IMG/VR virus record: IMGVR_UViG_3300044691_000555
Coordinates: 1-56,760 of that record
Strand: one strand, 5' to 3'
Source: a virus
DNA: 56,760 bases
Shown here in pieces: positions 1,041-56,760 of this stretch; position 1 is the first letter of the stretch, and every line of letters starts with the position of its first letter. Under the pieces are notes generated by a model. That model was not told the origin of the DNA. It saw only the letters and a program-made list of their open reading frames with translations, and searched no databases. A program made the translations under genes and the position numbers.

Positions 1041-1724
1041 CTATATCTTTTCGATCTGATCCAGCGACAACTCAACCGGGGTCTGACGACCGAAGATGTC
1101 GACAAGTAGGTGTACGCGGTCTGATTCGTCAATGTCTTCGATCGAAACAATCCCCGCTTTCGTCCCATCCATCCATTTCGGCACTTCAATGACCGTCCCG
1201 CCGAAGGAAGCGAACGGCCCGTCCGACACCCTGACCTGCTCACCAACGAGATATGCAAATTGCGTGATCTTGGTGACCCCCGGCACGGCGCCGTCGACCT
1301 CAAGGCCCTGAATTTCAGCGATCATTTTCCACGGCACCTCGACCGGCAGATTGTTGGCGCAGACCAGCCCACGAATGTGCGCCATCTTGAAAATCTCCCG
1401 CCATCGGTCGCCTGCATCGAGATAGTCGATGAACGCATAACCAGGGAAAAACGGCTCGACCTTTTCGCGCATCGGTTTGAACGCCGATCGGCGCTGCGAG
1501 TGCGATAGCTTGCTGCGCGGCACTGGCGTGAAGATGCGCATCAGCGGACGATAGAGTTTGATGCTCTGGCGATCGAGAAAATCGACCGTTAGGCTGTCGA
1601 TCCGGTCGCTAATCTGCACCAAATTCCAGATGTGCTCCGCAGGCTTTGACGCATCGACCTTCAGTGTCGGTTCGACGTAGCCGACAACATCGTTTTTCTG
1701 AGCATTCACATAGGATTTTTTCAT
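1041..1724 (-). CDS. NusG/RfaH-like transcription antitermination protein
   Basis: 227 residues. An NGN-like domain spans roughly residues 30-140 and includes the family signature FFPGYAFI (92-99). A KOW domain spans about 158-227 with VRVSDGPFASFGG and the C-terminal IFGRQTPVEL typical of NusG/RfaH. Such proteins bind the RNA polymerase clamp and promote processive transcription. The start at 1724 is firm: GGAGGGACGGA sits immediately upstream and the ATG overlaps the stop of the replication gene (ATGA). It is the last gene of the early operon and sits before a strong terminator, so a switch to late transcription is a reasonable inference. Confidence 0.9.
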   Translation of the reverse strand: MKKSYVNAQKNDVVGYVEPTLKVDASKPAEHIWNLVQISDRIDSLTVDFLDRQSIKLYRPLMRIFTPVPRSKLSHSQRRSAFKPMREKVEPFFPGYAFIDYLDAGDRWREIFKMAHIRGLVCANNLPVEVPWKMIAEIQGLEVDGAVPGVTKITQFAYLVGEQVRVSDGPFASFGGTVIEVPKWMDGTKAGIVSIEDIDESDRVHLLVDIFGRQTPVELSLDQIEKI

Positions 1725-3076
1725 TCCGTCCCTCCAGTCGTCGGCGATATCGTTCCATCCTTCCGTGGCGGCCATGGAATCGGCACTGGCAAGCCCTGCT
1801 CTGAGCGCCGCATCCGGAAATCCGCATGCGATGGCGACAATCCGTGCACGGCCGGATCGAACGGCTCCAGCCAGCGCTTGCGTGGTTCGGCCCATAGCCC
1901 GGTCCATGCGTGCAATCTTGCGCGCCAGGCGTTGAACGCGTTGCTATCCGTTGGCGCCGTCGGCCAATTGCCGATGTCATCAGTGGCAAAGCGCGCCATC
2001 GCCGCAAGATCAGCATCGATCGGAATCGCGCGCCACAGACCACGCCCTCGCTGCGGATCGTCGATCAGCCTCGGTGGCGGCAGATCGAGAATGCGATAGA
2101 CCACCGTCAGCGCCGCGGTTTCCGCTTCGGTAATCCAGACCGGCTCGCGTGCCTTTTCCGGCAGCCTGGCCTGCGGGAAATTGTCGAAGATGCGGTCTTT
2201 CAGGAAGCGCTCCGGCCGAACCGGTGCCGGTTTTGGTTTCGTGGCGGCCAGCTTTTTGGCGTATTCCGGCGACGCCGCCGCGGCCAGCGCTTGTTCCCGC
2301 GGCGGCATCGCAGCGAAAACCGGCAACACCTTGAGCCATGCCCACCGCTCGCGGTCCGGATAGTTCGATTTGAAATAGGCGAAGTGCTCCGGTTCCTGCT
2401 GGCCTTCCGTTTCCTGATCATCGTGATGATCCAAACGCTCCCCGGAGGGGAGTTGAGGGGAGAATTCAGGTTCAGGTTCAGAGATTAGACCCTTCCCGCA
2501 GTGGGAGGGCTGCGGTACCGCTGCGGTAGGGCTGGCCGAATTCAGCCCTTGCTGGTGGCCAGGGCTAATCGGCTGGCTGGCGGGATTTAGCCCTATCTGG
2601 CTGGCAGGGCTAAACGAGGTTTCCGCATCGTCGGCGCCGGCGCGGTCCGGATTTAGCCCTTGCTGGTGGCCAGGGCTATCGTCGTCGGCCGCGACACTCC
2701 GACCGAGCGTGCGCGCCTCGATATCGTCTTCGTCCGCCTCGATCTGCAGCTTGATCAGGTCGCTGGTGCGTTTGCCCTTGCCGTCGCCGTTGCGGCGGCC
2801 CTTCTCGTCGATCCATTGCGGGAACCGGACGATGACGCCGACCTCCTCGAGCCAGACCAGCCGCCGCCGCACGGTTTGCTCCGACAGTTCGGTGTCCTGC
2901 GCCAGCTGCGGAATGCCGACGAAGCAATAGCCGTCGCCGTCGACATAGAGCGTCAGCATGCTCAGAATCAATTTGGCCTGTGCGTTGTGAAGCCGCAGAT
3001 TGCGCGCCCAGGCATGCGCTTCGTCGGCGGCGACCCGCCGTTTCCGGCGCCGGTCGCTTGCAGCGGTGGTCGTCAT
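1721..3076 (-). CDS. Phage replication initiator-like protein (winged helix, gpO/DnaD type)
   Basis: 451 residues from MTTTAASDRRRKRR. Residues about 10-110 look like a helix-turn-helix (LAQDTELSEQTVRRRLVWLEEVGVI), as in phage replication proteins that open the origin and load host helicase. The middle is low-complexity and contains repeated PGHQQGLN peptides encoded by hairpin repeats (2541-2678). The C-terminal part is rich in Pro/Trp/Arg. The start codon ATG 3074-3076 lies after TTGGAA. The stop overlaps the NusG-like start. The initiator role is inferred from family style and the internal repeats, as in lambda O where the origin lies inside the gene. Confidence 0.7.
   Translation of the reverse strand: MTTTAASDRRRKRRVAADEAHAWARNLRLHNAQAKLILSMLTLYVDGDGYCFVGIPQLAQDTELSEQTVRRRLVWLEEVGVIVRFPQWIDEKGRRNGDGKGKRTSDLIKLQIEADEDDIEARTLGRSVAADDDSPGHQQGLNPDRAGADDAETSFSPASQIGLNPASQPISPGHQQGLNSASPTAAVPQPSHCGKGLISEPEPEFSPQLPSGERLDHHDDQETEGQQEPEHFAYFKSNYPDRERWAWLKVLPVFAAMPPREQALAAAASPEYAKKLAATKPKPAPVRPERFLKDRIFDNFPQARLPEKAREPVWITEAETAALTVVYRILDLPPPRLIDDPQRGRGLWRAIPIDADLAAMARFATDDIGNWPTAPTDSNAFNAWRARLHAWTGLWAEPRKRWLEPFDPAVHGLSPSHADFRMRRSEQGLPVPIPWPPRKDGTISPTTGGTE
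2541..2678. repeat. Three hairpin iterons inside the replication gene, candidate origin
   Basis: Three copies of an inverted-repeat unit with arms AGCCCT/AGGGCT: 2544-2566, 2586-2614 (arms extended to TTTAGCCCT/AGGGCTAAA) and 2652-2678. Spacers of about 11 nt are similar (TGCTGGTGGCC in copies 1 and 3). Copies are 45 and 66 bases apart, multiples of three because they are coding. Iterons within an initiator gene are known for lambdoid origins; origin function here is inference. Confidence 0.5.
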
Positions 3077-3138
3077 TTCCAATGGTCTCGTGATGCTCGG
3101 GGAAAACTGGACGCGGAACGCAACGGGCACAAAAGGTT

Positions 3139-3492
3139 CTATTCGGCGGCCTCGCTCGCCTTTGGCAGCGCCCGACAGCGGGCGATCTGTTCGAGTTTGT
3201 GCCGGCCACGCGTCACGCGCTCGGCGTCGCCGCTGCCGATATCGAGCTTGGCCATGTGCTCGACAGGGCCGTATTTGTCGGTCAGCACCGCGCCGTATTT
3301 GCGCGCCAGATGCTTCTTGCCGAGGCCGATATCGAAATGCACCCACGACGCCTTGGGCGGCTGCTGCAGCCATTTCTGCTGCAGCCCGATGCGCCGGGCC
3401 ATCGCCAGCAGTTCGTCGAGCGTATCGGCCCACATGTGGCGCATCGTCATGTGACGGAACTTGTGCCTGACGTCGTCGACATAGACCGTCAT
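3139..3492 (-). CDS. DUF4031 family protein
   Basis: 117 residues starting MTVYVDDVRHKFRHM, followed by HMWADTLDELLAMARRIGL and WVHFDIGLGKKHLA. These are the conserved blocks of the small DUF4031 family common in phages and bacteria. Its biochemical role is not established. Its start overlaps the stop of the adenine methyltransferase (3489). It lies between the DNA modification genes and the replication gene. Confidence 0.8.
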   Translation of the reverse strand: MTVYVDDVRHKFRHMTMRHMWADTLDELLAMARRIGLQQKWLQQPPKASWVHFDIGLGKKHLARKYGAVLTDKYGPVEHMAKLDIGSGDAERVTRGRHKLEQIARCRALPKASEAAE

Positions 3493-4367
3493 TCAGCGGC
3501 CCCTTCCATCAGCGTGTGGAAGTTGCGCTTGTCGCGATCGAGAGCTGCTGCAGCCGCCGGATTGATCCACAGCACTTCGGTGCGCGGCCGCGCGCCATCG
3601 GCCAGCGCCGCGAATTCGATGCGCCGCCAGTCGTGCAAGGCGTCGTCGTAGAGCGGGTGGGCGTAGCCGGACAGCACCACCATGCCGATCAGACCCCGGA
3701 GCGTCTCCAACAGCCTGACGTGCCCCCCCCCGTCGAGTTCGTGCTTATAGGCGGACTTGCCGCCCTTGAACATCGAACGGGTGTCGTGGACGTAGGGCGG
3801 GTCGACATAATGCAGCGACGTCGGCGCATCGTGGCGGGTCAGCACGATCAGCGCGTCGCGATGCTCGATCACGACGCCGCGCATGCGCTCGATGATCGCG
3901 CCATAGGCGTCCGGCAGATTCTGCCAGTCCTGCGCCGGCGTGGTGCCGCTGCGGTTCGAGTTCGAGCGGAAGCCCGTCGATTGATGCCCGCGTTGCGTCG
4001 CCGAATGGGCGTTGCTGCCAAACCCCATGAACGAGCGGATCACCAGCCGCCGCGCGCGCTCGACCGGATCGTCGGCGGGCTCATAGGCGATCTCGAATTC
4101 GCGCCTGGCGAACGGCGTCAGCCGCAGCAGTTCGATCAATCGGCAGGCCTGCGCCGGATCCTGCATCACCCGGAACAGCCCGACGATGTCGTCGTCAAGA
4201 TCGTTGTAGATCTCGGCATGGCTGCGCGGCTTGTGCAGCAGCACGCCGGCGCCACCGCCGAACGCCTCGGTGTAGAGCCGATGTGCCGGCAGGTATGGAA
4301 TGATCTGGCGCGACATCAGGAATTTGCCGCCGTGCCAGCGGACTGGTGGGCGTGTGATCGCGTTCAT
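3489..4367 (-). CDS. D12-class DNA adenine N6-methyltransferase (Dam-like)
   Basis: 292 residues. The N-terminal VRWHGGK and FGGGAG (about 36-41) form the AdoMet-binding motif, and the catalytic DPPY is at about 189-192, the order of the D12 (Dam/DpnM) class. It would methylate adenine N6 in a short site, which cannot be read from sequence. The start ATG overlaps the RT stop (4364). Its position directly after the DGR reverse transcriptase makes it co-transcribed with it. With no restriction endonuclease nearby, self-protection from host restriction is likely. Confidence 0.93.
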   Translation of the reverse strand: MNAITRPPVRWHGGKFLMSRQIIPYLPAHRLYTEAFGGGAGVLLHKPRSHAEIYNDLDDDIVGLFRVMQDPAQACRLIELLRLTPFARREFEIAYEPADDPVERARRLVIRSFMGFGSNAHSATQRGHQSTGFRSNSNRSGTTPAQDWQNLPDAYGAIIERMRGVVIEHRDALIVLTRHDAPTSLHYVDPPYVHDTRSMFKGGKSAYKHELDGGGHVRLLETLRGLIGMVVLSGYAHPLYDDALHDWRRIEFAALADGARPRTEVLWINPAAAAALDRDKRNFHTLMEGAAE

Positions 4368-5368
4368 GCCGAAGTCCCTTTCTTCGGCACGCTGATTCCG
4401 AGGCTCCGGATCAGGTTGGTGCTATCGGCCCAGCGCGCGTGACCGAGCCATGCTGCCAGGAATTTTCGCAACCGCTCGTAATCGCCGGCGGCCCGGTACG
4501 CCGCGATTTTGCGCCGCGCCCGCGTCACGCTGTCCTTGCGCAGCAGCTTGTGGCTGGCCCAGATCCGGTAGCCGAGGAAATTGACGCCGCGCGAGACCGG
4601 CGCGATCTGCCATTTCGAGACCCGCAGCCCGAGTTGCTGGCGCGAGAATGCCTCGATCGCTTCCTTGACCCGCCGCAGATGCTCGGAACTGCGGCCGAGC
4701 ACCACGATGTCGTCCATGTAGCGGTACCAGACCCGCTCGCCGAGGGTCTGTTGCAGATAGCGGTCGAGCGTGGCGCCAGCATAGAGATTGGCGAAAATCT
4801 GCGACGTCAGGCTGCCGATCGGCAGGCCGATGCCGGCGCGCGGCACCATCGCTTCGATCAGTTTTAGCGTGGCGCGGCAGGAAATCTTGGCCTCGATCAG
4901 CCGCCACAGCACCTTGCGCTCGATCGAGGCGAAATAGGCCGAGAAATCCGTCTTGAGGAAGTAGAGCGGGCCATCGCGGGACTCGCGCCGCAACTCGCTC
5001 TGCAGCAGCACCACGCCGGCATGCGTCCCCTTGCCCGGACGGCAGGCGAATGCCCGCGGCAGCAGCGCGCGGTCGAAGATCGGCGCGATCACCAGGCACA
5101 GCGCCTGCTGCGCGATGCGGTCGCGGAACGGCAGCGCCGAGATCAGCCGCAGCTTTGGATCGAACACGTGGAACTGGTGCGGCGGACCGGCAACGTAGCG
5201 GCCGTCTGCGACGTCCCGGGCGAGATCGGCAAGGTTGAGCGCCGAAAATTCCTTGAATTCGAGATAGCCCGGCGTCAGCCGCTTGCCGGCGGCGGTCAGG
5301 CGCAGTGCCGCTTCCATGTTGCGCGGCGAGGTGATGTTGCCGATCAGATTGCGGTAGCGCTTTGTCAT
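4364..5368 (-). CDS. DGR-type reverse transcriptase
   Basis: 334 residues. RT palm motifs are visible in order: RPGKGTHAG (about 110-117), FLKTDFSAYFASI (137-149), IGSLTSQ (184-190), the catalytic YMDD (217-220) and a following FLGYRIW. The [ILV]GSxxSQ form of motif 4 is characteristic of DGR reverse transcriptases. It would copy the TR-containing RNA with adenine infidelity to make cDNA that rewrites the VRs. It lies 184 bases after the TR. Its ATG overlaps the TR-containing frame by 4 nt (ATGA), preceded by a GGGGGCG purine stretch. The next gene overlaps its stop. Confidence 0.97.
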   Translation of the reverse strand: MTKRYRNLIGNITSPRNMEAALRLTAAGKRLTPGYLEFKEFSALNLADLARDVADGRYVAGPPHQFHVFDPKLRLISALPFRDRIAQQALCLVIAPIFDRALLPRAFACRPGKGTHAGVVLLQSELRRESRDGPLYFLKTDFSAYFASIERKVLWRLIEAKISCRATLKLIEAMVPRAGIGLPIGSLTSQIFANLYAGATLDRYLQQTLGERVWYRYMDDIVVLGRSSEHLRRVKEAIEAFSRQQLGLRVSKWQIAPVSRGVNFLGYRIWASHKLLRKDSVTRARRKIAAYRAAGDYERLRKFLAAWLGHARWADSTNLIRSLGISVPKKGTSA

Positions 5369-5691
5369 GACGCCCCCGCTGAAAAACCGGCCGCGGGTCT
5401 CGACAGCCGCAAATTGATGCGACCGCTACGCCCCGCTCTGCCGGACCGTGAAGTGTGTTCGCCGAAGCAGGACAGTCGGGCTGACCACCAGCCTTGGCTG
5501 AGTGTGATCCGCCGGCGCGACCGTGATCGTTGCCGAGCAGCAATCAGCATAAGGTCGTCACTGCGGCCGCGGGCGCCGAAGTTCTCGTTCGAATTGCCGG
5601 GGAAGTTGTACGCGACGTTCGCCTGGCGCGAGCCCGCGTCGTCGTCGTTCCACCAGTTCCCGCCGAACAAGGAAGCGCGCGGCTGCATCAT
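5365..5691 (-). CDS. Open frame containing the DGR template repeat, possibly translated
   Basis: 108 codons beginning ATGATG inside the end of avd and stopping TGA inside the RT start, with 4-nt overlap at both ends. The first third reads the TR in the same frame as the target proteins (PRASLFGGNWWNDDDAG, then Asn-rich). The rest is unlike the targets and rich in Arg/Ser. GGGGAA lies upstream of the ATG. It may be translated only to couple avd and RT translation, or be a remnant of a duplicated target 3' end, or be coincidental. No function is claimed. Confidence 0.4.
   Translation of the reverse strand: MMQPRASLFGGNWWNDDDAGSRQANVAYNFPGNSNENFGARGRSDDLMLIAARQRSRSRRRITLSQGWWSARLSCFGEHTSRSGRAGRSGRINLRLSRPAAGFSAGAS
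5552..5683 (-). repeat. DGR template repeat (TR)
   Basis: 132 bp homologous to VR1 (offset 588) and VR2 (offset 12166). In the coding orientation it holds 23 adenines, clustered as AAC/GAC-type codons. All differences to the VRs occur at these adenines except one at 5556, in the 3' edge where IMH* and IMH are expected to differ. A G/C-only 16-mer (5563-5578) forms the 3' part, as in the initiation-of-mutagenic-homing element of BPP-1. No downstream hairpin like that of the VRs is present. Confidence 0.97.
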
Positions 5692-6098
5692 TTCCCCGCC
5701 TGCCCCATCGGACGCGCGGACGCGTCAGATGCTTTCAGCTTCCTTTGCCATGCGCCGAGCATTTTTCCGGGCTCCGCCAGTAGCGCCAAGGCGGCGACAT
5801 GCTGTTTCGGGCCGAGGATTTTGATGTCGCCGCGACTGAGGAAGCGCAGGAATGACCGCAAGGTCGCGAACTCGGCATCGACGGCGTAGAGCCGCGACAC
5901 CTGCCTCGATTTTGCGGCATGGTAGAGGCCGCCGATCGGCCCGAACAGCGCCGCCAGCACGGCATCCCGGAGGACACCATGCCGGCGCGGCGCGTTCTGC
6001 AGGATCGGATAGAGATAGTTCACAAAGGCCTCGTATCGTTCCACGATCGCCAGGGCGTCGGTTGCTGAGTTTTCGTCCCTGACGATCTGAGTTTGCAT
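5688..6098 (-). CDS. avd: Avd-like accessory variability determinant
   Basis: 136 residues, predicted all-helical and basic: IVERYEAFVNYLYPILQNAPRRHG, then helices through LRSFLRFLSRG and HVAALALLAEPGKMLGAW. Size, four-helix pattern and position between target 1 and the TR match Avd, the pentameric helical-bundle protein that binds the RT and template RNA in DGRs. Individual Avd sequences diverge, so the call rests mainly on size, helix content and synteny. The stop lies 5 bases before the TR, and an ATGA overlap joins it to the TR frame. An alternative is an unrelated helical protein, which I consider unlikely. Confidence 0.88.
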   Translation of the reverse strand: MQTQIVRDENSATDALAIVERYEAFVNYLYPILQNAPRRHGVLRDAVLAALFGPIGGLYHAAKSRQVSRLYAVDAEFATLRSFLRFLSRGDIKILGPKQHVAALALLAEPGKMLGAWQRKLKASDASARPMGQAGK

Positions 6099-6107
6099 TG
6101 GCTAACC

Positions 6108-6127
6108 GCCGTCGCTGTCGCGCCGGC
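6108..6127 (-). other. DGR target-1 hairpin downstream of VR1
   Basis: Coding orientation GCCGGCGC-GACA-GCGACGGC: an 8-bp stem with one G.A mismatch and a GACA tetraloop, 12 nt beyond the end of VR1. DNA hairpins just after the VR are known to boost target recognition in BPP-1. The stop codon of target 1 (6127-6129) abuts the stem. A matching structure follows VR2 and not the TR. Confidence 0.85.
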
Positions 6128-7032
6128 TAGACAGGTTGCAGGTGGTCACTGCGGCCGCGGGCGCCGAAGTTCTCGTTCGAATTGCCGGGGAAGTTGTACG
6201 CGACGTCCGCCCGGCGCGAGCCCGCGTCGTCGCCGCCCCACCAGTACCCGCCGAACAAGGAAGCGCGCGGCGTGTCGGGGTCGCCGTCATGGCCCCACAC
6301 CCACAGATTGCCGGTTGCCTGCATCAGGCCGAACTTGCTGGTGCGCGGCGCGTCGAGCCCGGTCCTGACCGGATCATCGCCGATCGCCGTTTTTTCGGTG
6401 ACGCCGAACGCCGCGGCGAAAAACTCCTCGACGCTCAGCAGCCCCTTGCCATGCGCGGCCATCACGGCGGCCGCGGTGGCATAATCGAACCGCTTGTAGG
6501 TCTTGCCGGCGGGATCAAGCGGGCGGTCGTTGCCGTCGGCGATGGTGACGCCGAACTTGCTGGTGCCGTCCTCGGCGCAATTCGACCCGGTCAGATAGAT
6601 GTCGGCCCAGAATTTCCGGCCCAGCATCTCGACCAGCGCCATGCCGCGCGGATCCGGACACGCCGGGCGGAAATTCAGGTCCCACAGCGAGAACGGATTG
6701 ATTGCGGGAATCTCGTCGCCGCCGGCCCGCGCGGCCGCATTGCCGCCGGGCGCAAAGTGGAAGCCGCCGATATAGTCGGTTTCTTCCGGCGAACGCGTCG
6801 ACCGGAATGCGACGGGCGCGCCGCCGAGCGCCACGACATAGTCGGCGCCGGGCACCAGGCCCTGCTGCGGCAGCATCACCGGGGTATCTTCCGTCAGCGA
6901 CCGCTCGCCGAATGACGTTCCGGCCTTGACCAGCAGCGTATCGCGACCAGTCAGCTTCAGGACCGGCGAATGCACATCCATCTTGGTCAGGATCGATATC
7001 GGCCGATCTTCAAGTCTTGCTTGCTTGTTCAT
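6127..7032 (-). CDS. DGR target protein 1 (C-type lectin/FGE-fold, variable C-terminus)
   Basis: 301 residues. An N-terminal region of about 75 residues precedes a formylglycine-generating-enzyme/C-type-lectin style domain (IGGFHF, NPFSLWDLNFRPACPDPRGM, SKFGLMQATGNLWVWGHDG), the fold in which DGR variable residues are displayed on the surface. The C-terminal 40 or so residues are VR1 (GGYWWGGDDAGSRRADVAYNFPGNSNENFGARGRSDHL). No signal peptide is seen. GGAGA lies upstream of the ATG. It likely acts as a binding or tropism protein, but it is not in the structural gene block. It is paralogous to the protein at 17660-18610. Confidence 0.95.
   Translation of the reverse strand: MNKQARLEDRPISILTKMDVHSPVLKLTGRDTLLVKAGTSFGERSLTEDTPVMLPQQGLVPGADYVVALGGAPVAFRSTRSPEETDYIGGFHFAPGGNAAARAGGDEIPAINPFSLWDLNFRPACPDPRGMALVEMLGRKFWADIYLTGSNCAEDGTSKFGVTIADGNDRPLDPAGKTYKRFDYATAAAVMAAHGKGLLSVEEFFAAAFGVTEKTAIGDDPVRTGLDAPRTSKFGLMQATGNLWVWGHDGDPDTPRASLFGGYWWGGDDAGSRRADVAYNFPGNSNENFGARGRSDHLQPV
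6140..6271 (-). repeat. DGR variable repeat 1 (VR1)
   Basis: 132 bp aligned base for base to the TR at 5552-5683. Six substitutions lie in the variable part, all where the coding-strand TR has A: four A-to-G and one A-to-G/one A-to-T pair by codon (on the + strand five T-to-C and one T-to-A). The 3' edge differs by one base from the TR (6144 G versus 5556 C on the + strand). The G/C-only 16-mer at 6151-6166 is unchanged. Confidence 0.97.
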
Positions 7033-7083: not shown

Positions 7084-7827
7084 TCAGGCAGGCACCCACT
7101 GATCTCGGCCGACGCTGACGCCGGCGCCGAGCTGCAGCACCTGGCGTACCTTGGCGCGGGCGTTTTCCTTGCCGCGCGCCTTCGGGTGATCCTTGATCAG
7201 CTGCCAGATGTCGGCGACGCGGACCGGGCCCTCCATCGCGCGGATGGTTTCGCCGACCAGTTGCGCCCACGTCACATCGGCCAGGGCTTCGACCAGCACG
7301 AACCGCGGAAAAATCAGCGGCACGAACTGGCCGTTGAGCCCGCATGCGGCCAGCACGTCGGCATCGCCGTCGCCATAGGCGCACAGCACGGTCGGCGCGC
7401 CGCTATTGGCTGCGGCGCGATCGCCGCTCGGATAATGGAAATTTAGCCGGCCGCGCAGAAACAGCAGCGCATGCGCCCGTTCCCAGACGTGCCGGAAGAA
7501 CGCGTCGGTCTCGGTTCGCGCAAAGATGATGGTGGTGCCGCAACCATGCGACGCCAGCTTTTCCAGCCAGCGGCCGATGATGCCGTTGGTGTAGGGCGGA
7601 TTCAGCCAGACGCGCCCGAACCACGGCAACGCCAGCCCGTCATCGGCCTTGGTGTAGCGCGCCTTTGCCGTCGGCCAGGGCTGCACGTCCGGCGTCGCCG
7701 GGTCGAGATCGAAACTGGCGGCGCCGCCGAGTGCCGCCAGCACAGCCGGCGGCGTCAGCCATTCGACCGTCTGCGGCCGGTTGGAATGGTGACCGCCGAT
7801 GCCGGCGAAGCGTTGGGCCCGGTTCAT
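7084..7827 (-). CDS. Phage DNA N-6-adenine methyltransferase
   Basis: 247 residues with VEWLTPPAVLAALG, FDLDPAT and the catalytic NPPY (in VWLNPPYTN), the hallmarks of the phage-encoded 'DNA N-6-adenine-methyltransferase' family. The C-terminal third, after about residue 170, contains a separate helical region ending KVRQVLQLGAGVSVGRDQWVPA. It modifies adenine in phage DNA, probably against restriction. It lies directly upstream of DGR target 1 (about 50 bp) and overlaps the small gene at 7824. Recognition site unknown. Confidence 0.9.
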   Translation of the reverse strand: MNRAQRFAGIGGHHSNRPQTVEWLTPPAVLAALGGAASFDLDPATPDVQPWPTAKARYTKADDGLALPWFGRVWLNPPYTNGIIGRWLEKLASHGCGTTIIFARTETDAFFRHVWERAHALLFLRGRLNFHYPSGDRAAANSGAPTVLCAYGDGDADVLAACGLNGQFVPLIFPRFVLVEALADVTWAQLVGETIRAMEGPVRVADIWQLIKDHPKARGKENARAKVRQVLQLGAGVSVGRDQWVPA

Positions 7828-8030: not shown

Positions 8031-8281
8031 CGGCCGAACCTCCGGAAGGTGTTCGAGACCAGAGCCACCGCGTCGAAACCGAGCAGGATCACGACAGCGA
8101 TGACGGCGCCGCCGAAAGCACCGATCACGGTGACGACGCGCACGGCGGCGAGGTTGAGCGCTTTTCCCGGCCCCATTCCGCCGCGACGATCGCACCAGCG
8201 CTGGCCGGTCATGATCGCCAGCACGGCGCCGATGATGCCGGCTGCGACGAACAGTGCGGCGATATCTGCCTTGGTCATCAT
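8027..8281 (-). CDS. Small two-helix membrane protein, hypothetical
   Basis: 84 residues with two hydrophobic stretches: ADIAALFVAAGIIGAVLAIM near the N-terminus and VIGAFGGAVIAVVILLGF in the second half, separated by a charged loop. It starts with ATGATGA at the end of the cytosine methyltransferase gene; either Met is possible. Function unknown. Confidence 0.65.
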   Translation of the reverse strand: MMTKADIAALFVAAGIIGAVLAIMTGQRWCDRRGGMGPGKALNLAAVRVVTVIGAFGGAVIAVVILLGFDAVALVSNTFRRFGR

Positions 8282-10461
8282 TCGGCAGCCTCCAGCGTGA
8301 ATTCGAGATCGTCGGGGAGCTCGATCTCGCGCGGCGCGAAATTGGCGCGCACCAGCGCTTCCGCCAACGGCGGCGGCACGCTGTTGCCGCACTTCGAGAC
8401 CTGCTGGGTTTTGGTGATGGCGACGCGGTCGCCTTTCTTCCAGCCCATATCTTCGTCGTCGGCGATCGCGATGCCTTCGGCGATGATGTAGCTTTCAGGA
8501 AAGCCTTGGGCGCGGAACAATTCGCGCGGGATCAGCATCCGCATCCCGATATCGTTGATGACGTAGGGCTCGCCCTCGATCATCACGGTGACGATGGCCG
8601 CGCGATCTTTCGTGGTGACCGTATGCAGCGGATCGTCCGGCGTTTGACCGTCGCCAGTGCCGTAATATTTCTGCAGGAACGCCGCCGACAATTGCGTCTT
8701 GCCCTGCCCGTCCGCCATCACGGTCCGCGCCGGCTCGTCCAGCGACGACCCGACCCCGGTCCCGAACTGCCGCAGCAAATTCGCCGCGACCAGGCCCTGA
8801 TGCGAGCCCGTATGCAGGATGGTCGAGACCGGCGCATCGACCGGACGGCCGGGGTTGATCCCATCGCCGCGCGAGATGTTGTGCTGCGCCAGGAACGCCG
8901 CAACCAGGTGCATATGCGCGCCGCCGGCCGTGACCGTATGCGCCGGCTGATCGGCGCCCTGGAACGGCTTGCCTGCGTTGCGCATCGTCATCAGGTGCGG
9001 CGCGACGATGCCGATCGGCGCCGCCCCGCCCGGGCGCTTGAGGTAGGAATTCGAGGTCACCGTCGGTGCCGGGTGTTCGAGCGACGCGCCGACCTGGCCG
9101 CCGTGAAACTTGGTCAGATGCGGCGCGATCAGCGCATGCCGGTTTTCAGTCGTCTGCGTCCGCAACGGGTCTTCGACGCTGGCGCCGCGGCCGCTTTCGC
9201 CTTCACCTTCGCCGTAATAGGCGGACAGCACGGGCGCGATCAGCGCATGCTTGACCCCGCCGGCGACGGTCGTGCCGAGCGGCTTGTCGAGGCCGGGCAC
9301 ACGCGGTTCCTGCCCCTCGCGCTCGCCGTATCCGGTCTGGATCAGCGTCGGCACGATGATCTGGTTCTGATCCTTCGCCGATGCGGTAATGGTATGCATC
9401 GGACCGGCGGCCGCCCGGATGCTGCCACCTTGCTGCGCGGCGCTGACGAACGGCGTGACGACGACGCTATCGGCCTTCGCGGTCAACGTTTGCGCCGGCA
9501 GATCGATGCCGCGCGGTTCGGTCTGGCCCATTCGCCCGCCGACACCGGCCACGAACGGCACGGCCAGCGCCTTCTCGCCGCGATGTGCGCCGGTAATGGT
9601 CGCGATCGGATCGTCGATCGACTCGGTTCGATCGCCGCCCTGATGCGTCAGATTGACGATGAACGGCTTGGCCGCATCCAGCACGTAGCGCTTCACGCCC
9701 TTGGCGATCCGCGCCATCGTCGCCGGCTGCAGCGGCCGGACCGCCCGCAGTCCGAATCTTTCCATGATCTCCGCGGCAGTGTCGAAGATCGAGGGGCACG
9801 GCAGCGACCAGTCGATGATTTCGGCGGCCGTGCGCCATGGCAGTTTATTGCCGGCGGCAACGTCGGGATCCTTCGGGCCGCCATGCGTCGGTTTCGGCCA
9901 CACGATCGGCAGGCCATCTCTCCTCGCAATCAGGAACAGCCGCTTGCGGATGGTCGGCGCGCCATAGTCGCAGGCGCGCAATTCGCGATGCTCGACCCTG
10001 TAGCCGAGCCGCTTCAGTTCATTGACCCAGCGCTTGAAGGTCGCGCCCTTGCGCTCCGGGCACGGGCGGCCATCTATGGCCAGCGGTCCCCACGTCTGGA
10101 ATTCCTCGACGTTCTCCAGGATGATGACGCGCGGTTTGACCTGGCGCGCCCAGCGCACCACCACCCAGGCGAGGTCGCGAATGCTCTTCTCGACCGGCTT
10201 GCCGCCCTTGGCCTTGGAAAAGTGCTTGCAGTCCGGCGAGGCCCACAGCAGCCCGACCGGACGGCCATCACAGACCTGCAGCGGATCCACCTTCCAGATT
10301 GAATGCGGCAGATGCAGCGTGTCCGGATGGTTGGCCGCATGCATCGCCAGCGCAACCGCATCATGGTTGATCGCGATGTCGGGCGAGATGCCGAGCGCCC
10401 GTTCGATGCCCGTCGAGGCGCCGCCGCCGCCCGCAAAGCTGTCGACGATCAATTCCCTCAT
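8278..10461 (-). CDS. DNA (cytosine-5) methyltransferase with central repeats
   Basis: 727 residues. Motif I SFAGGGGASTGIE (8-20), catalytic-cysteine motif SPDCKHFSK (C78), ENVEEF (116-121) and a QxRxR-like APTIRKRLFLIARR (about 168-181) define the Dcm class. Between about residues 270 and 640 are some ten imperfect repeats of a '(L/V)(D/E)xPxxTVTAxxxHxLVAPxL' pattern in place of an ordinary target recognition domain. Motif IX/X-like MRMLIPRELFRAQGFP is near the C-terminus. It is likely a protective modification enzyme with unusual or multiple specificity; no partner endonuclease is seen. Its stop overlaps the membrane protein gene. Confidence 0.93.
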   Translation of the reverse strand: MRELIVDSFAGGGGASTGIERALGISPDIAINHDAVALAMHAANHPDTLHLPHSIWKVDPLQVCDGRPVGLLWASPDCKHFSKAKGGKPVEKSIRDLAWVVVRWARQVKPRVIILENVEEFQTWGPLAIDGRPCPERKGATFKRWVNELKRLGYRVEHRELRACDYGAPTIRKRLFLIARRDGLPIVWPKPTHGGPKDPDVAAGNKLPWRTAAEIIDWSLPCPSIFDTAAEIMERFGLRAVRPLQPATMARIAKGVKRYVLDAAKPFIVNLTHQGGDRTESIDDPIATITGAHRGEKALAVPFVAGVGGRMGQTEPRGIDLPAQTLTAKADSVVVTPFVSAAQQGGSIRAAAGPMHTITASAKDQNQIIVPTLIQTGYGEREGQEPRVPGLDKPLGTTVAGGVKHALIAPVLSAYYGEGEGESGRGASVEDPLRTQTTENRHALIAPHLTKFHGGQVGASLEHPAPTVTSNSYLKRPGGAAPIGIVAPHLMTMRNAGKPFQGADQPAHTVTAGGAHMHLVAAFLAQHNISRGDGINPGRPVDAPVSTILHTGSHQGLVAANLLRQFGTGVGSSLDEPARTVMADGQGKTQLSAAFLQKYYGTGDGQTPDDPLHTVTTKDRAAIVTVMIEGEPYVINDIGMRMLIPRELFRAQGFPESYIIAEGIAIADDEDMGWKKGDRVAITKTQQVSKCGNSVPPPLAEALVRANFAPREIELPDDLEFTLEAAE

Positions 10462-14601: not shown

Positions 14602-14978
14602 CAGGTCCCCACTTTCGTGCCGTCGTCCCAGATGAACTCGCCATCCGCGCCGACCGGGAAATGCGAACCGCAGCCGCAGCAGAACGTGCCGGAATAGAAT
14701 TTCGGGTCGCGGGCATAGGTTTCGGCGAGCGATTGCCCCATCGTGGTCGCGACGCCGCATTTTTGGTGGACGTAGGTCCGCTGCACCGGCCGCACGAAAC
14801 CACGCGCCCTCTCGGCATCGCTGAGCACGACATAACCCTTCTGCTGGCCATCGGGCCGCAGCTCGTCATGGCCAGGCGTCACCGGCGAGCCGTCGGTCAG
14901 CGTGCGCTGGGTCCGATCGACCGCAGGGGTGGCGCCGACCGCGCGGGCGATGCCGTCGATGATGGTTTTGACGGTCAT
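14601..14978 (-). CDS. Conserved phage zinc-binding hypothetical protein
   Basis: 125 residues: GYVVLSDAERARGFVRPVQRTYVH then CGVATTMGQSLAETYARDPKFYSGTFCCGCGSHFPV and a C-terminal FIWDDGTKVGT. This pattern, with Cys pairs around a conserved TMGxxLAETYARxPxFY block, is widespread in phages; function unknown. Overlaps both neighbours. Confidence 0.7.
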   Translation of the reverse strand: MTVKTIIDGIARAVGATPAVDRTQRTLTDGSPVTPGHDELRPDGQQKGYVVLSDAERARGFVRPVQRTYVHQKCGVATTMGQSLAETYARDPKFYSGTFCCGCGSHFPVGADGEFIWDDGTKVGT

Positions 14979-16663
14979 GCCGGCACCTGTGCGTCAGACG
15001 CCGGACGTTCCGTGCGCCTCAAGAACTCTGGAATATCGAGCGGGTGCGGAGGCGCGGCAGCGTCAGCGACGCCGTTCGCTGACGGCCGACGCTTCGCGTC
15101 GCCCTGCTCGGGCATGGTTCCTACGTGCCGACCGTCGTCAGCCGTTCCGCAACCGGTGCTGGGGGCCTCGCGAGCCGTACCAGACGCCTCCCTGGGTATT
15201 TCGAAATGATCGCAGCAGACGCATTCGATCGCCGCGATGAAAAGAGGTGCCGGCGCAGGGAGCAAACCAACTGCGCCGGCGTCCGATGTCCGGCCATCGG
15301 CAACCCTACCGGCAGGCGGTTCTATACCTGGCGGCTCCTTTGGAACCGCACGCGCGCCTGCTTTCGCTTGGGAATGGTCTTTTCTTTGAACGGGATGCTG
15401 GGTGAACCGCTCGACGTCGTCTGCCTTCGTCAGCGCATCGCGGCAGCCTGGCGGAATCCAGCACGGCGCCTGCGGTTCGAGGTACTTGTCCCATACCAGC
15501 CAGACATAGGCGGTCGCGGTGTCACCTTGCGGATTCCAGCGACCCTTGCACAGCGGCACGCGCTCGACGAAAAACGCGATCTTGGTCGGCGGCCTGTCGC
15601 GGTAGATGTTTTCGTAGCGGCCGAGGGTTTCCAGGCAGCGCATTTGCACGAACATCGCGACGCCATATTGGGCGCGCGCCAAGGCCTTGATCATAAAGCT
15701 TTCGATTTTTTCGCCGAACGGCGGGTTGGTGATGATCCAGTCGGCATAGATGTCGCCGCTGTCCGGCCTGAGAAAATCGACCGGTTCGCGGCGGCTATAG
15801 CCATAGTCGTGGATATCGGTCGCGATCACCTTGCCGAAATATTCCGCCAGCACCTCGGCAATGTGGCCCTCGCCGCAGGCCGGTTCCCACACCGAATATT
15901 TTTCGATGTCGTTTTCCATCAGGTGCGGCAGCAGCACATGCTCGACCAGCGCCCGCGTCGCCCATGGCGGCGTCGGAAAGAAGTCGAGACTGTCGTCAGG
16001 CTCCAGCCTTGACGCCATGGTGGCGCGGTTACCGGACGGCAGCGCCTTTTCCAGTGCCGCCGGCTGCTCGGCTTCCGGCAGCCTGGCGATCTTTTCCGCG
16101 GCAGAGAGCGATAGGTCGCGTCGTTCGACTGCAGCGTTCAGCGGCTCGATACCTGCCTGTGCCACCAATTTGCCGGACGCCGCGGTGCGCTCACTGACAC
16201 TCAATGCTTGTGCGGCTTCCGCAGTCGAAACCTTCTGCAAATTTGCAGAAGGTTCGAGATCAGTCCGCTCCCCTTGACGCATATTGGCAAGTCGACCTGC
16301 GACCAATCCCCGCTGGCTGGTGGTCAGGTGCCGCCGCTTTAGGTTCTTCGACAACACCCACGCGAGCGGCTCGCCATCCATCGCCGGATTGAACGCGCAG
16401 AACCAGAGCTGCGGCGGATCGAGCAGTTCAGGTGAAAGAGCGTCGCCGGCCCGATGGCCCCAACCCGGGCCCAAGACTTCGCCTGACTCGGCAAGGTGTT
16501 GAAGTGCCTTGTACCGGTTGCGACCATCGAGGATCTGTCGGTCGATGAGAACGATTCGATCGCGAATGCCATTTTCGCGGATGTCATCGACAAATGCCGT
16601 AAAATCCTCGCCGTCCAGCAACGGAAACAGTTCGGCGTAAGGGTGGGCCGGAAGGTGCGTCAC
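14975..16663 (-). CDS. ParB-like nuclease domain / DNA methyltransferase fusion
   Basis: 562 residues from a GTG that overlaps the upstream stop (GTGA), preceded by GGGGAGGG. A ParB/sulfiredoxin-like N-terminal domain covers about residues 10-60 (AFVDDIRENGIRDRIVLIDRQILDGRNRYKAL). A ParB-type helix-turn-helix region (TSQRGLVAGRLAN ... AQALSVSERTAASGKLV) follows. An AdoMet methyltransferase fold comes next, with EPACGEGH (260-267) and the catalytic NPPF (313-316). The C-terminal 130 residues are low-complexity. Such fusions are known in phages; whether the protein segregates, cuts or methylates DNA is open, but NPPF favours adenine N6 methylation. Confidence 0.85.
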   Translation of the reverse strand: MTHLPAHPYAELFPLLDGEDFTAFVDDIRENGIRDRIVLIDRQILDGRNRYKALQHLAESGEVLGPGWGHRAGDALSPELLDPPQLWFCAFNPAMDGEPLAWVLSKNLKRRHLTTSQRGLVAGRLANMRQGERTDLEPSANLQKVSTAEAAQALSVSERTAASGKLVAQAGIEPLNAAVERRDLSLSAAEKIARLPEAEQPAALEKALPSGNRATMASRLEPDDSLDFFPTPPWATRALVEHVLLPHLMENDIEKYSVWEPACGEGHIAEVLAEYFGKVIATDIHDYGYSRREPVDFLRPDSGDIYADWIITNPPFGEKIESFMIKALARAQYGVAMFVQMRCLETLGRYENIYRDRPPTKIAFFVERVPLCKGRWNPQGDTATAYVWLVWDKYLEPQAPCWIPPGCRDALTKADDVERFTQHPVQRKDHSQAKAGARAVPKEPPGIEPPAGRVADGRTSDAGAVGLLPAPAPLFIAAIECVCCDHFEIPREASGTAREAPSTGCGTADDGRHVGTMPEQGDAKRRPSANGVADAAAPPHPLDIPEFLRRTERPASDAQVPA

Positions 16664-17091
16664 GCCACGCCCTCCCCGGCCAGCTGCGCAATTTCGCCGC
16701 GGCAGGCCTCGATCCCGACGATGATGCGGTCGAACCGCTTGCCGCGCACAAGCGCCGCGAACGGCGTCGGATCCTGTGACACGCCGCAGGGATCGAACAC
16801 GCGCGCCGAAGGTGACGCGGCATAGAGATGGCGCCAGGTGCTGCGGTTGCCGTCGACCACCACAAAGAACCGGCTCTTCGGCATATCGAGTGCGAGCATC
16901 ACGGCGTCGAGCGTGACGTCGGCGGGCCAGCACAGCAGGCCCAGCGGCGGCGCCGAGGTCGCGGTATTGGCCACGGCGTTGCGCAGGGCGGCGATCTGGC
17001 CGTCGTGATCACGGGCCGGACGCCTCAGGTTCTGCATCAGCGCGGAGCGGCCGCGACCGACCTGGCGATGCTGATGGTTCCAATTGTCCAT
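16660..17091 (-). CDS. Hypothetical protein
   Basis: 143 residues from MDNWNHQHRQVGRGRSALMQNLRRP, with a hydrophobic Rossmann-like central strand pattern (SRFFVVVDGNRSTWRHLY, ACRGEIAQLAGEG). No catalytic motif is recognised. The TGATG overlap with the gene upstream and the GTGA overlap with the ParB/methyltransferase gene place it firmly in the operon. Confidence 0.6.
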   Translation of the reverse strand: MDNWNHQHRQVGRGRSALMQNLRRPARDHDGQIAALRNAVANTATSAPPLGLLCWPADVTLDAVMLALDMPKSRFFVVVDGNRSTWRHLYAASPSARVFDPCGVSQDPTPFAALVRGKRFDRIIVGIEACRGEIAQLAGEGVA

Positions 17092-17659: not shown

Positions 17660-18610
17660 CTACAGCGCCCGCGCCCGGACGAGACCGCCGTCGCTGCCGC
17701 GCCGGCGACCAGGTTGCAGGTGGTCACTGCGGCCGCGGGCGCCGAAGTCCTCGTGCGAATCGCCGGGGAAGACGCACGCGACGTACGCCCGGCGCGAGCC
17801 CGCGTCGTCGCCGTACCACCAGTACCCGCCGAACAAGGAAGCGCGCGGCGTGTCGGGGTCGCCGTCATGGCCCCACACCCACAGATTGCCGGTCGCCTGC
17901 ATCAGGCCGAATTTGCTGGTGCGCGGCGCGTCGAGCCCGGTCAGCTTGGGATCGCGTTTGGCAGAACTCTTTTCCGTGACGCCGAAAGCGGCGGCCGGAA
18001 ACTCGTCGAGGCCGAGCAGCCCCTTGCCATGCTGCGCCATCACCGCGGCCGCGGTCGCATAGTCGAACCGCGCGTAAGGCTGACCGGTCGAAGGGTCGAG
18101 CGGACGGTCGTTGCCGTCGGCTATGGTCACGCCGAATTTGCTGGTGCCGTCGAGATGGCAGGTCGCGCCGGTCAGATAGACATCGCACCAGAACTGTCCG
18201 CCGGGCTTTTGCACCAGCGCCATGCCGCGCGGATCGGGGCACGCGGGGCGAAAATTCAGATCCCACAGCGAACACGGATTGATCGCCGGAATGTCATCGC
18301 CGCCGGCGCGCGCGGTGGCGTTGCCGCCAGATGCGAAGTGAAAGCCGCCAATGACGTCGTCGCTCGACGGAACAGCAAAAGCGCGCAACGCCCGCGCCAC
18401 GCCGCCGGATACGACGACGCCATAATCCGCGCCGACAACCAGCGGACTGGCGAACTCGACCGGTGTCTGCTTTGCGAAACGCTGTCCAGCAAAAACGATC
18501 CCGGCCCGGATCGCGATGGTTTCCGCGCCGGTCGCGATCAGCGCCGGCAGATCGGGGTCTTTCTTGATCAAGATCGCGATCGACCCATCCATCTTGGCAT
18601 GCGCGTTCAT
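17660..18610 (-). CDS. DGR target protein 2 (C-type lectin/FGE-fold, variable C-terminus)
   Basis: 316 residues, paralogue of target 1: shared IGGFHF, NPCSLWDLNFRPACPDPRGM, TSKFGVTIADGNDRPLDP and SKFGLMQATGNLWVWGHDG. The C-terminal variable part reads GGYWWYGDDAGSRRAYVACVFPGDSHEDFG, more diverged from the TR than target 1. It lacks target 1's stop and continues through the downstream hairpin with a basic GRRRGSDGGLVRARAL tail. The N-terminal 75 residues differ more between the paralogues. GGAGG lies before the ATG. It is about 11 kb from the DGR core, so it is diversified in trans. Confidence 0.94.
   Translation of the reverse strand: MNAHAKMDGSIAILIKKDPDLPALIATGAETIAIRAGIVFAGQRFAKQTPVEFASPLVVGADYGVVVSGGVARALRAFAVPSSDDVIGGFHFASGGNATARAGGDDIPAINPCSLWDLNFRPACPDPRGMALVQKPGGQFWCDVYLTGATCHLDGTSKFGVTIADGNDRPLDPSTGQPYARFDYATAAAVMAQHGKGLLGLDEFPAAAFGVTEKSSAKRDPKLTGLDAPRTSKFGLMQATGNLWVWGHDGDPDTPRASLFGGYWWYGDDAGSRRAYVACVFPGDSHEDFGARGRSDHLQPGRRRGSDGGLVRARAL
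17687..17706 (-). other. DGR target-2 hairpin downstream of VR2
   Basis: Coding orientation stem GCCGGCGC/GCGACGGC with a GGCA loop, 11 nt beyond VR2; identical stem to the VR1 hairpin. Here it lies inside the target-2 coding frame. Confidence 0.82.
17718..17849 (-). repeat. DGR variable repeat 2 (VR2)
   Basis: 132 bp aligned to the TR without gaps. Eleven substitutions fall within the variable part, every one at a TR adenine (coding strand), including A-to-G, A-to-C and A-to-T changes. The single non-adenine difference is at the 3' IMH edge (17722), shared with VR1. The G/C-only 16-mer at 17729-17744 is unchanged. Confidence 0.96.
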
Positions 18611-18630: not shown

Positions 18631-19026
18631 TCATCGGATGTTGCCCTCGAGCGCTTCCAGCCGCCGCGAGGTGTCGGCCTGCTGCTGACGCAGTTTTGCG
18701 ATCTCGCGAACGGCACGGATGTTGTCGGCCCATGGCGATTTGACGGATGCGATCAGCGCTTCATGGACGAGGTCGCCGATATCGCTGCGCAGCAGGGTCG
18801 CCAGCGCCTTGCCGTCGGGCGCGCCCTTGCCGGACAGCCATCGCTCCACCACGCTGACCGAACGGCCCGACCTGTGGGCAACTTCAGCGGCGCAATTTTG
18901 GGAAAAAATCTGCTTCAATTGCAGCGCGGTAGAAGAAAACCACCCGCATGGATGCGGGAATCGACCCTCATCGCTGCGGGTCGCGGTTTTTGACGGGTTC
19001 CGCTGGTGACGTAGGTTCCCGCTCAT
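18631..19026 (-). CDS. Putative helix-turn-helix regulator with coiled-coil C-terminus
   Basis: 131 residues. A central LKQIFSQNCAAEVAHRSGRSVSVVERWLSGKGAPDGKAL block resembles a Cro/C1-type helix-turn-helix. It is followed by a helical coiled-coil tail (ADNIRAVREIAKLRQQQADTSRRLEALEGNIR). It overlaps the Cro-like gene upstream by 4 nt and sits 20 bp before target 2. Could be a CII-like activator or early regulator; inference. Confidence 0.6.
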   Translation of the reverse strand: MSGNLRHQRNPSKTATRSDEGRFPHPCGWFSSTALQLKQIFSQNCAAEVAHRSGRSVSVVERWLSGKGAPDGKALATLLRSDIGDLVHEALIASVKSPWADNIRAVREIAKLRQQQADTSRRLEALEGNIR

Positions 19027-19280
19027 GTGGGCACCTGTTCCGTTTTGCGTTCTTCCATCGCCTTGTCGGCAGCCAACCTCGCGATCAGATCGGCGGTCAC
19101 GCCGCGAATGCCGCGCTTCGTCGCACCCGCGACCGCGTCCGCGACGTATTCCAGCCCGATCCGGTCACGCCTCCGCATCGCCTTCGCCGCGCCGTAGGTT
19201 GCGCCAACGTCGTCAGCGAATTCCTGCAGCCCAGGCCATGCGTCGATGATGTCGCGATGAGAGGAGAAACTGTCGGTCAT
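19023..19280 (-). CDS. Cro-like regulator
   Basis: 85 residues: IIDAWPGLQEFADDVGATYGAAKAMRRRDRIGLEYVADAVAGATKRG, the compact helix-turn-helix layout of phage Cro-type proteins that pair with S24 repressors. First gene of the leftward early operon, divergent from the repressor gene. No Shine-Dalgarno exists because a 13-bp-arm palindrome lies directly against the ATG, so the mRNA may be leaderless. Likely competes with the CI-like repressor for the same operators. Confidence 0.75.
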   Translation of the reverse strand: MTDSFSSHRDIIDAWPGLQEFADDVGATYGAAKAMRRRDRIGLEYVADAVAGATKRGIRGVTADLIARLAADKAMEERKTEQVPT

Positions 19281-19311
19281 GAATCATCGGTACTTTTTGT
19301 ACCGATGATTC
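19281..19311. promoter_or_regulatory. Long palindrome, operator and leftward promoter
   Basis: Perfect inverted repeat with 13-bp arms GAATCATCGGTAC / GTACCGATGATTC around TTTTT. The inner GGTAC-N5-GTACC recurs at 20042 and 20068. Leftward, a TTGACG -35 box (complement of 19311-19316) overlaps its outer edge. The symmetry suits a dimeric CI or Cro. Confidence 0.8.
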
Positions 19312-19330
19312 GTCAAGCGAAAGGTCCAAC

Positions 19331-19353
19331 TTGTACCCGGGATATAGGTACAA
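19331..19353. promoter_or_regulatory. Inverted repeat TTGTACC/GGTACAA upstream of the repressor gene
   Basis: Arms TTGTACC (19331-19337) and GGTACAA (19347-19353) with a 9-nt spacer containing GATATA, just before the repressor ATG at 19362. The arms share the GTACC/GGTAC half-sites with the other operators but in opposite arrangement. Probable second operator or repressor promoter element. Confidence 0.6.
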
Positions 19354-19361
19354 AACGGACC

Positions 19362-19997
19362 ATGAGCGAGGTTTCGGAGCGAATCGCCTTTCTTGGCAAG
19401 CGGATGGGTTGGACAACCCTCTCGCAGGCGGCGGAGGCCTATGGCATCAAATACGAGTCTTTCAAGAAGATCGCGTCCCACAATGCCAGCGATCCGCGCG
19501 GACTGACGGTCGACAACGCCCTAAAGATCGCCCGCTTTCACAAGATTTCGCCCGGCTGGCTGATGTTCAATGAGGGAAGGCCGGGAGGCATCAAGGGGAT
19601 TCCGCTGGAGGGCAAAATCGGCGCCGGCCAGGAGATGATGATCTTCGAAAATCCCGGCAACGAAGAGCCGATCCCCTTTGAAATAGTGGGTGTCGAGGCG
19701 ACGGCGCTGGAGGTCGACGGCGATTCGATGCTTCCGCTCGCCCGCGACGGAGATATCGTGTTCGTCGGACCGTCTCGCAAGGATATCCGGACTTTGGTTG
19801 GCCAGGAATGCGCGGTTCTTTTGGAGGACGGTCGCCGTTTCTTCAAGGTGATCGAAAACGGCTCGGAGAAGGGTCGTTTCGATCTGCGGTCCTACAATGC
19901 AGCACGGATCGAAAACGTTGAGATCCATTCCGCAGGCCCTCTGCTGGCGATCAGGCGAATGTATAAGGACCGAATCGCGAAGCGAAAACGAGGGTAA
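19362..19997 (+). CDS. CI-like repressor with S24 (LexA-type) autocleavage domain
   Basis: 211 residues from MSEVSERIAFLGKRMGW. An N-terminal helix-turn-helix (SQAAEAYGIKYESFKKIAS) is followed by a C-terminal S24 peptidase-like fold. It has a GAG cleavage motif (A88-G89), nucleophile in VDGDSMLP (S122) and general base in FFKVIE (K162), as in CI and LexA. It would keep the prophage silent and be inactivated by RecA after DNA damage. A much longer upstream reading frame is rejected because this start fits the domain edge. It is divergent from the Cro-like gene with operators between and downstream. Confidence 0.92.
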   Translation: MSEVSERIAFLGKRMGWTTLSQAAEAYGIKYESFKKIASHNASDPRGLTVDNALKIARFHKISPGWLMFNEGRPGGIKGIPLEGKIGAGQEMMIFENPGNEEPIPFEIVGVEATALEVDGDSMLPLARDGDIVFVGPSRKDIRTLVGQECAVLLEDGRRFFKVIENGSEKGRFDLRSYNAARIENVEIHSAGPLLAIRRMYKDRIAKRKRG

Positions 19998-22976: not shown

Positions 22977-23158
22977 CCGAAGCGTTGCTTCGTAAGGCGT
23001 CGGAACAGTTAGACGTGCCCTATGAGCAGCTGACCGCCGAATTACCGCTTTCCGACCCGGAGATCACGGCCCGACATCGCAATCTGATGTTCCCGGCCCG
23101 CCGGCTTTTTGGTTTGGATCGACCCTGGATCAATCCCGTCAAGGATCCGTCCGAGTGA
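22931..23158 (+). CDS. Hypothetical protein
   Basis: 75 residues: MADSEKLPDPRYAAVTEALLRKASEQLDVPYEQLTAELPLSDPEITARHRNLMFPARRLFGLDRPWI. Acidic-helical then basic. The stop overlaps the GTG start of the recombinase (GTGA), implying co-expression. Confidence 0.6.
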   Translation: MADSEKLPDPRYAAVTEALLRKASEQLDVPYEQLTAELPLSDPEITARHRNLMFPARRLFGLDRPWINPVKDPSE

Positions 23159-56601: not shown

Positions 56602-56760
56602 CCCATTTATGGCCGCGGGGAAAATCGCCCGGGAAGGACCCGTTCGAAGGGCCGACGATTGCCCGAACCGCCCACCGTTCAGGCGCCGAGCACGCGGTAG
56701 AGTTCGTGTGCGATGCGCCCGGGCAGGTCGCGGTCGACCGTGCCGAAGAACGCGGCCTCC
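56602..56760. repeat. Terminal direct repeat, right copy
   Basis: Second copy of bases 1-159, with 7 mismatches in the first 60 bases and identity thereafter. See left copy. Confidence 0.9.
56679..56760 (-). CDS. Partial duplicate of the tail protein Z-like gene (3' end)
   Basis: Reading leftward, the last 82 bases are identical to 78-159 and encode the C-terminal end (RDLPGRIAHELYRVLGA) and stop of the tail protein. It is a fragment because the window ends here. Confidence 0.85.
   Translation of the reverse strand, partial: EAAFFGTVDRDLPGRIAHELYRVLGA

Follow-up and report, generated by a model that had tools for sequence, protein, structure and literature searches.

The sequence studied here, which we refer to as the window, is a viral record of 56,760 bases. 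Its two ends carry a near-repeat of 159 nt (positions 1-159 and 56602-56760; 96% identity, with seven mismatches that all lie in the first 60 nt), and the window is therefore probably a closed genome; the seven mismatches probably reflect assembly from a mixed population. It encodes the structural genes of a phage (terminase, portal, capsid, tape measure and baseplate proteins), and the presence of a serine integrase and a CI-like repressor indicates that this phage is temperate. Among its named relatives, the closest are in Hyphomicrobiales, Notoacmeibacter and Paracoccus MAGs, so the host is probably alphaproteobacterial. The minus strand of the window carries a diversity-generating retroelement (DGR), the parts of which are listed below together with a second target and the two genes on which the temperate assignment rests.

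4364..5368, minus: DGR reverse transcriptase (RT, Brt-like), 334 aa, with YMDD and IGSLTSQ
5365..5691, minus: open frame embedding the template repeat and the spacer, 108 aa, with an ATGA overlap at both ends
5386..5538, minus: spacer RNA between template repeat and RT, Rfam Phage_DGR (RF03022)
5552..5683, minus: template repeat (TR), 132 nt, 23 adenines
5688..6098, minus: avd, accessory protein, 136 aa (NF033474, Pfam bAvd)
6108..6127, minus: hairpin after VR1, loop GACA, 7 of 8 bp with one G-A mismatch, overlapping the target stop codon
6127..7032, minus: target 1, Mtd-like receptor-binding protein, 301 aa
6140..6271, minus: variable repeat 1 (VR1), six adenine-specific differences and one G>C at the 3' boundary
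17660..18610, minus: target 2, paralogue of target 1, 316 aa
17686..17707, minus: hairpin after VR2, loop GGCA, 8 of 9 bp with one G-A mismatch
17718..17849, minus: variable repeat 2 (VR2), 11 adenine-specific differences and the same G>C
18948-19997: CI-like repressor
23155-24816: serine-recombinase-type integrase, with PHROG integrase and DNA invertase matches

A sequence-only reading of this DNA had described a complete DGR in a temperate phage, with target, VR1, hairpin, avd, TR and RT in the canonical order on one strand. This description is borne out, as every part was found, all of them on the minus strand and in that order. The RT contains both motifs that had been pointed out and has the signature of the DGR class, in which (I/V)GxxxSQ replaces QGxxxSP, plus YxDD. 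The proposed comparison with known RTs places the Brt protein of phage BPP-1 by far the closest (54.7% identity over 96%), with 375 bits to the solved Brt structure 8ub7_A and at most 51 bits to any other RT of known structure; the RT also matches PHROG 1423 (E 9e-111). Avd passes the NCBIfam model NF033474 (106 bits, cut-off 80) and matches BPP-1 Bbp7 (4dwl, E 2e-24), and target 1 matches the PHROG 11262 tail protein and, over residues 16-298, the PDB entry for Mtd (1yu2_A, E 2e-45). By this sequence homology to Mtd of known structure, and by a VR whose end adjoins the target stop, target 1 classes as a target with a predicted C-type lectin fold. RT, Avd and target are thus each full-length homologues of BPP-1 proteins (Brt, Bbp7/Avd and Mtd). 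An origin of the RT from a group II intron, a retron or a defence system, with repeats that have nothing to do with it, can be set aside, since a generic RVT_1 match and weak matches to other RT classes are outweighed by the difference in score between Brt and the other solved RTs, by an RT that, as the sequence-only reading expected, groups with neither of the first two families (92.5 of the 300 bits of the group II intron cut-off TIGR04416, 44.6 of the 235 bits of the retron St85 model), and by the avd gene and adenine-specific TR/VR differences that accompany it. As a DGR, the window system belongs to an already known kind: it has in common with the BPP-1 DGR (mtd-avd-TR-brt) the gene order, the RT, Avd and the Mtd-type target, as well as the IMH boundary, the GRNA hairpin and the Phage_DGR spacer RNA.

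The repeats carry the differences typical of this element. Over the 132 nt, VR1 differs from TR at seven positions, six of them TR adenines, and VR2 at 12 positions, 11 of them TR adenines; the binomial chance of such an adenine bias is 1.7e-4 for VR1 and 4.5e-8 for VR2. The sole mismatch outside adenines in either VR is an identical G>C near the 3' end, which is the IMH/IMH* difference. In target 1, TR adenines hit 16 codons, and nine of these align with adenine-hit codons of BPP-1 Mtd. Recognition of targets by the BPP-1 DGR follows a GRNA rule (PMC3240598), and when a hairpin was sought as a 4-nt GRNA loop on a stem of 7-10 bp, 4-34 bp after the VR, both VRs were found to have one, with 7 and 8 pairs and one mismatch each. 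Their folding energy alone is not significant in such GC-rich DNA (z -0.7 for VR1, -0.2 for VR2), and the persuasive evidence for the hairpins is the comparison across relatives only: when the window and its close relatives are taken together, GRNA loop and position recur after 30 of 33 VRs, several of the loops being GAAA or GGAA. Between TR and RT, the spacer scores 75.1 bits against Rfam RF03022 (gathering cut-off 50), a family that the BPP-1 spacer also matches, as do those of eight further relatives that were scanned, and compensatory changes among relatives are found in nine of the 24 consensus pairs of this RNA.

Variation between relatives indicates that these elements are at work. Adenine-specific variation among related phages and a TR/VR relation in other genomes had been named as checks, and both were found: of the 619 mismatches counted over 45 loci with a TR/VR pair, 560 are at TR adenines. 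For instance, the relatives L028 and L029 have identical TRs, RT genes 99.9% identical in DNA and target DNA 99.7% identical upstream of VR, and their VRs differ at 22 positions, 19 of them TR adenines; the pairs L043/L044 and L036/L046 point in the same direction. In L043 (8320-8466) and L044 (4937-5083), which are near-identical contigs, the TRs themselves differ at six positions, all A to G, which is odd because the template itself should not mutate; self-homing into TR or mis-assembly are possible explanations. No second isolate of the window phage was found, and for this reason the activity of its own DGR is something that we infer. Recent activity on VR1 could be modest, as it has just six adenine changes, three of them identical to changes in VR2. 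A decayed or inactive DGR with old VR differences would explain this small number and the shared changes, and also the one mismatch in each hairpin stem; it is nevertheless very unlikely, because RT, avd and target still have intact ORFs with every motif present, the two VRs differ from one another at nine positions that are all TR adenines, and apart from the boundary base no changes outside adenines have built up across the 132 nt.

The second, remote target that had been noted earlier is genuine, as VR2 shows the adenine-specific differences and has its own hairpin. The stop codon within this hairpin has been lost in target 2, which reads about 16 aa past the usual stop. The DNA of the two targets is near-identical for only about 70-90 nt upstream of VR and then about 80% identical or less, and this hints at past gene conversion between them. 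A second target 11.6 kb away sets the window phage apart from BPP-1; as a mark that distinguishes this phage among DGRs it does not hold up, since 12 of the 45 loci with a TR/VR pair have two VRs and a remote one is also present in L009. In this relative, whose RT is 83% identical, the second VR is on the opposite strand at a distance of about 11 kb, has 15 of 16 mismatches at adenines and is followed by a GACA hairpin; target location and strand are therefore free. A study of the reconstituted BPP-1 system reported that target location and orientation alter the rate only (PMC12875486). A remote target-like copy in the record of L024 (G012) had no TR match in the piece of the record examined. 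One TR serving several targets is also known from the early DiGReF survey, which puts DGRs with several VRs at about a seventh (PMC3521204), and from phages nd4 and nd12 (PMC10743442); in nd4 and nd12 the two targets are different kinds of protein inside the cassette, whereas in the window the second is remote and a paralogue. The window phage adds a well-supported case of a temperate phage in which a single template serves one target nearby and another that is remote.

The part of our results that goes beyond an ordinary DGR is the maintained frame through the template. The template embedded in an ORF, to which the sequence-only reading had drawn attention, is present in the window: the start ATG of the 108-aa frame overlaps the avd stop and its TGA stop overlaps the RT start. 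It had been taken as distinctive of this phage and proved to be common to nearly the whole clade. The overall comparison covered about a hundred relatives. From viral contigs, scanned twice, and genomes, scanned once, came 62 non-redundant loci with an RT identity of at least 65%, the window included. In 58 of these, TR and spacer read in the VR frame are open to the RT start, compared with just 23 and 6 when the frame is shifted by 1 or 2 nt at the TR end. One of the four exceptions, L016, has an insertion of about 350 nt (~2150-2556) between the conserved spacer and RT. The RT starts in phase 0, as one fused ORF, in 52 loci, in the ATGA phase of the window in eight and in the third phase in two. 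The TR-RT distance takes 32 different values among the 62 loci; by parsimony on the RT tree it changed about 47 times and the phase nine times, where 31 phase changes would be expected for free indels (P 3e-11, a rough value as parsimony changes are not fully independent). As a control on the same tree, the intergenic distance between target and avd changed 39 times, 23 times in phase, in keeping with a lack of constraint, and among independent sister pairs the length differences are multiples of three in 17 of 25 for TR-RT and in 6 of 19 for this control distance. In 44 of 60 relatives the avd stop and the TR-frame ATG share an ATGA overlap, and in the rest they are at most 14 nt apart. An anti-SD match of -6 kcal/mol or better precedes this ATG in 92% of relatives versus 39% for the RT start; this difference deserves little weight, because the G-run before the TR-frame ATG may be the stop signal for cDNA synthesis known to lie at the avd end (PMC12875486). 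A sigma-70 promoter scan found no promoter.

The spacer peptide itself appears free to change. Its pN/pS is about 0.85 in the TR frame, no better than in another frame, so that there is no peptide constraint; in TR, the middle segment has a pN/pS of 0.66 and the segments at either end 0.33-0.36, values that are expected because TR feeds VR. The 108-aa ORF as an ordinary protein gene was considered and rejected, as its only family match is that of the TR part to the target family and the spacer lacks pN/pS constraint. An antisense gene as the cause of the kept frame was likewise rejected, an antisense frame being open across the stretch in at most six of 62 loci. Frame openness and phase are kept and the amino acids are not, while the RNA helices covary. 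It is conceivable that the frame is not translated and stays open merely as a side effect of high GC content, of a gene overlapping it in antisense or of RNA conservation, a reading with which the conserved, structured spacer RNA and a spacer pN/pS that is no worse in another frame agree. We consider this unlikely, as the two offset frames so rarely reach RT, length changes preserve the phase between TR and RT and not in the control, the antisense frame hardly ever spans the stretch, and multiples of three are not explained by RNA structure alone. From the kept openness and phase, the simplest reading that we can infer is one in which ribosomes arrive at RT by way of the template.

The clade of BPP-1 itself, sampled as 56 non-redundant loci, shows the same tendency to keep a frame. 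Of the 38 loci spaced for the RT-phase frame, 30 keep it open between the avd stop and RT, all 13 loci with the alternative spacing keep the ATGA-type frame open, and five further loci fit neither; 27 length changes are accompanied by eight phase changes (18 expected, P 9e-5). BPP-1 has an RT-phase frame open through TR and spacer, but in another phase than the VR and without an ATG at the avd stop, whereas the TR frame of the window phage has its ATG at the avd stop and runs as far as the RT start. The reconstitution study noted that brt has no clear ribosome binding site and that adding one gave a 100-fold gain (PMC12875486). The early survey recorded, as one structural group, DGRs with a TR that overlaps the RT ORF as annotated (PMC3521204). 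In the part of that survey available to us, this class shares with the window the overlap of TR with an RT reading frame; the RT ORF is there fused with TR, whereas in the window the ORF ends at the RT start, and the same part holds no statement on conservation of the TR-overlapping frame. In the literature covered, to which most subscription papers did not belong, we found no paper on translational coupling in DGRs and no earlier description of a frame kept open through the template up to RT.

Building on the parts, homologies, adenine-specific differences, hairpins and spacer RNA observed directly, we propose a series of steps in which cDNA synthesis, homing and the change of attachment are modelled on BPP-1. 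The RT-Avd complex would bind a transcript across the avd end, TR and the structured spacer and would make a cDNA copy of it in which random bases stand opposite the adenines of the template. This copy would then replace VR1 in the adjacent target and VR2 in the second target, guided by the shared IMH end and by the GRNA-loop hairpin behind each VR, and the exposed binding residues of two Mtd-like proteins would be diversified. These proteins probably attach the phage to its host, their putative tail function being assigned by homology. Ribosomes would reach RT by translating through the template, a step that is less certain than the DGR reading and is suggested by the frame that stays open all the way between the avd stop and the start of RT. 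We put the probability that the cassette is a complete BPP-1-type DGR of a temperate phage, with cDNA homing as its proposed mode of action, at roughly 0.96. For BPP-1-type phage DGRs as a group, we give slightly better than even odds to the view that the template RNA is also a translated mRNA: ribosomes would start at or near the avd stop, pass through TR and spacer, and then either run on into RT, with the translated stretch as its N-terminal extension (52 of 62 loci), or hand over at ATGA (8 of 62, including the window phage). If this is true, RT synthesis and template use would be mutually exclusive, and a spacer-bound RT-Avd complex would shut off its own synthesis. The kept frame offers a concrete answer to two questions, namely by what route RT comes to be translated and what separates the roles of one RNA as template and as messenger, and the tendency seen in the clade of BPP-1 makes the idea testable in the model system.

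The setting of the cassette also differs from that of BPP-1, where it lies behind the tail genes; in the window it lies between repressor and replication genes. Leftward from the repressor follow target 2, methyltransferase genes and target 1 with the DGR; beyond the cassette lie a further methyltransferase, a replication initiator and an antiterminator-like gene. Together with its two targets, the DGR thus looks as if it sits in an early-type operon, apart from the tail genes, and in the relatives L009, L018 and L049 the cassette has homologues of these genes nearby. Four different DNA methyltransferase genes flank the DGR or separate the targets (3489-4367, 7084-7827, 8278-10461 and 14975-16933). 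The suhB/mmgR small RNA family is known from rhizobia; an Rfam match to it lies at 826-903 on the minus strand, between the antiterminator-like gene and a neck gene (62.9 bits, cut-off 41), and the relative L010 also has such an RNA (7403-7479), likewise downstream of RT. The replication-initiator-like ORF (1721-3433) contains three copies of a partly palindromic 42-nt repeat (2530-2682), possibly origin iterons. Six repeat copies at a spacing of 63 nt (42897-43291) lie inside an unassigned ORF of 451 aa near the tail genes.
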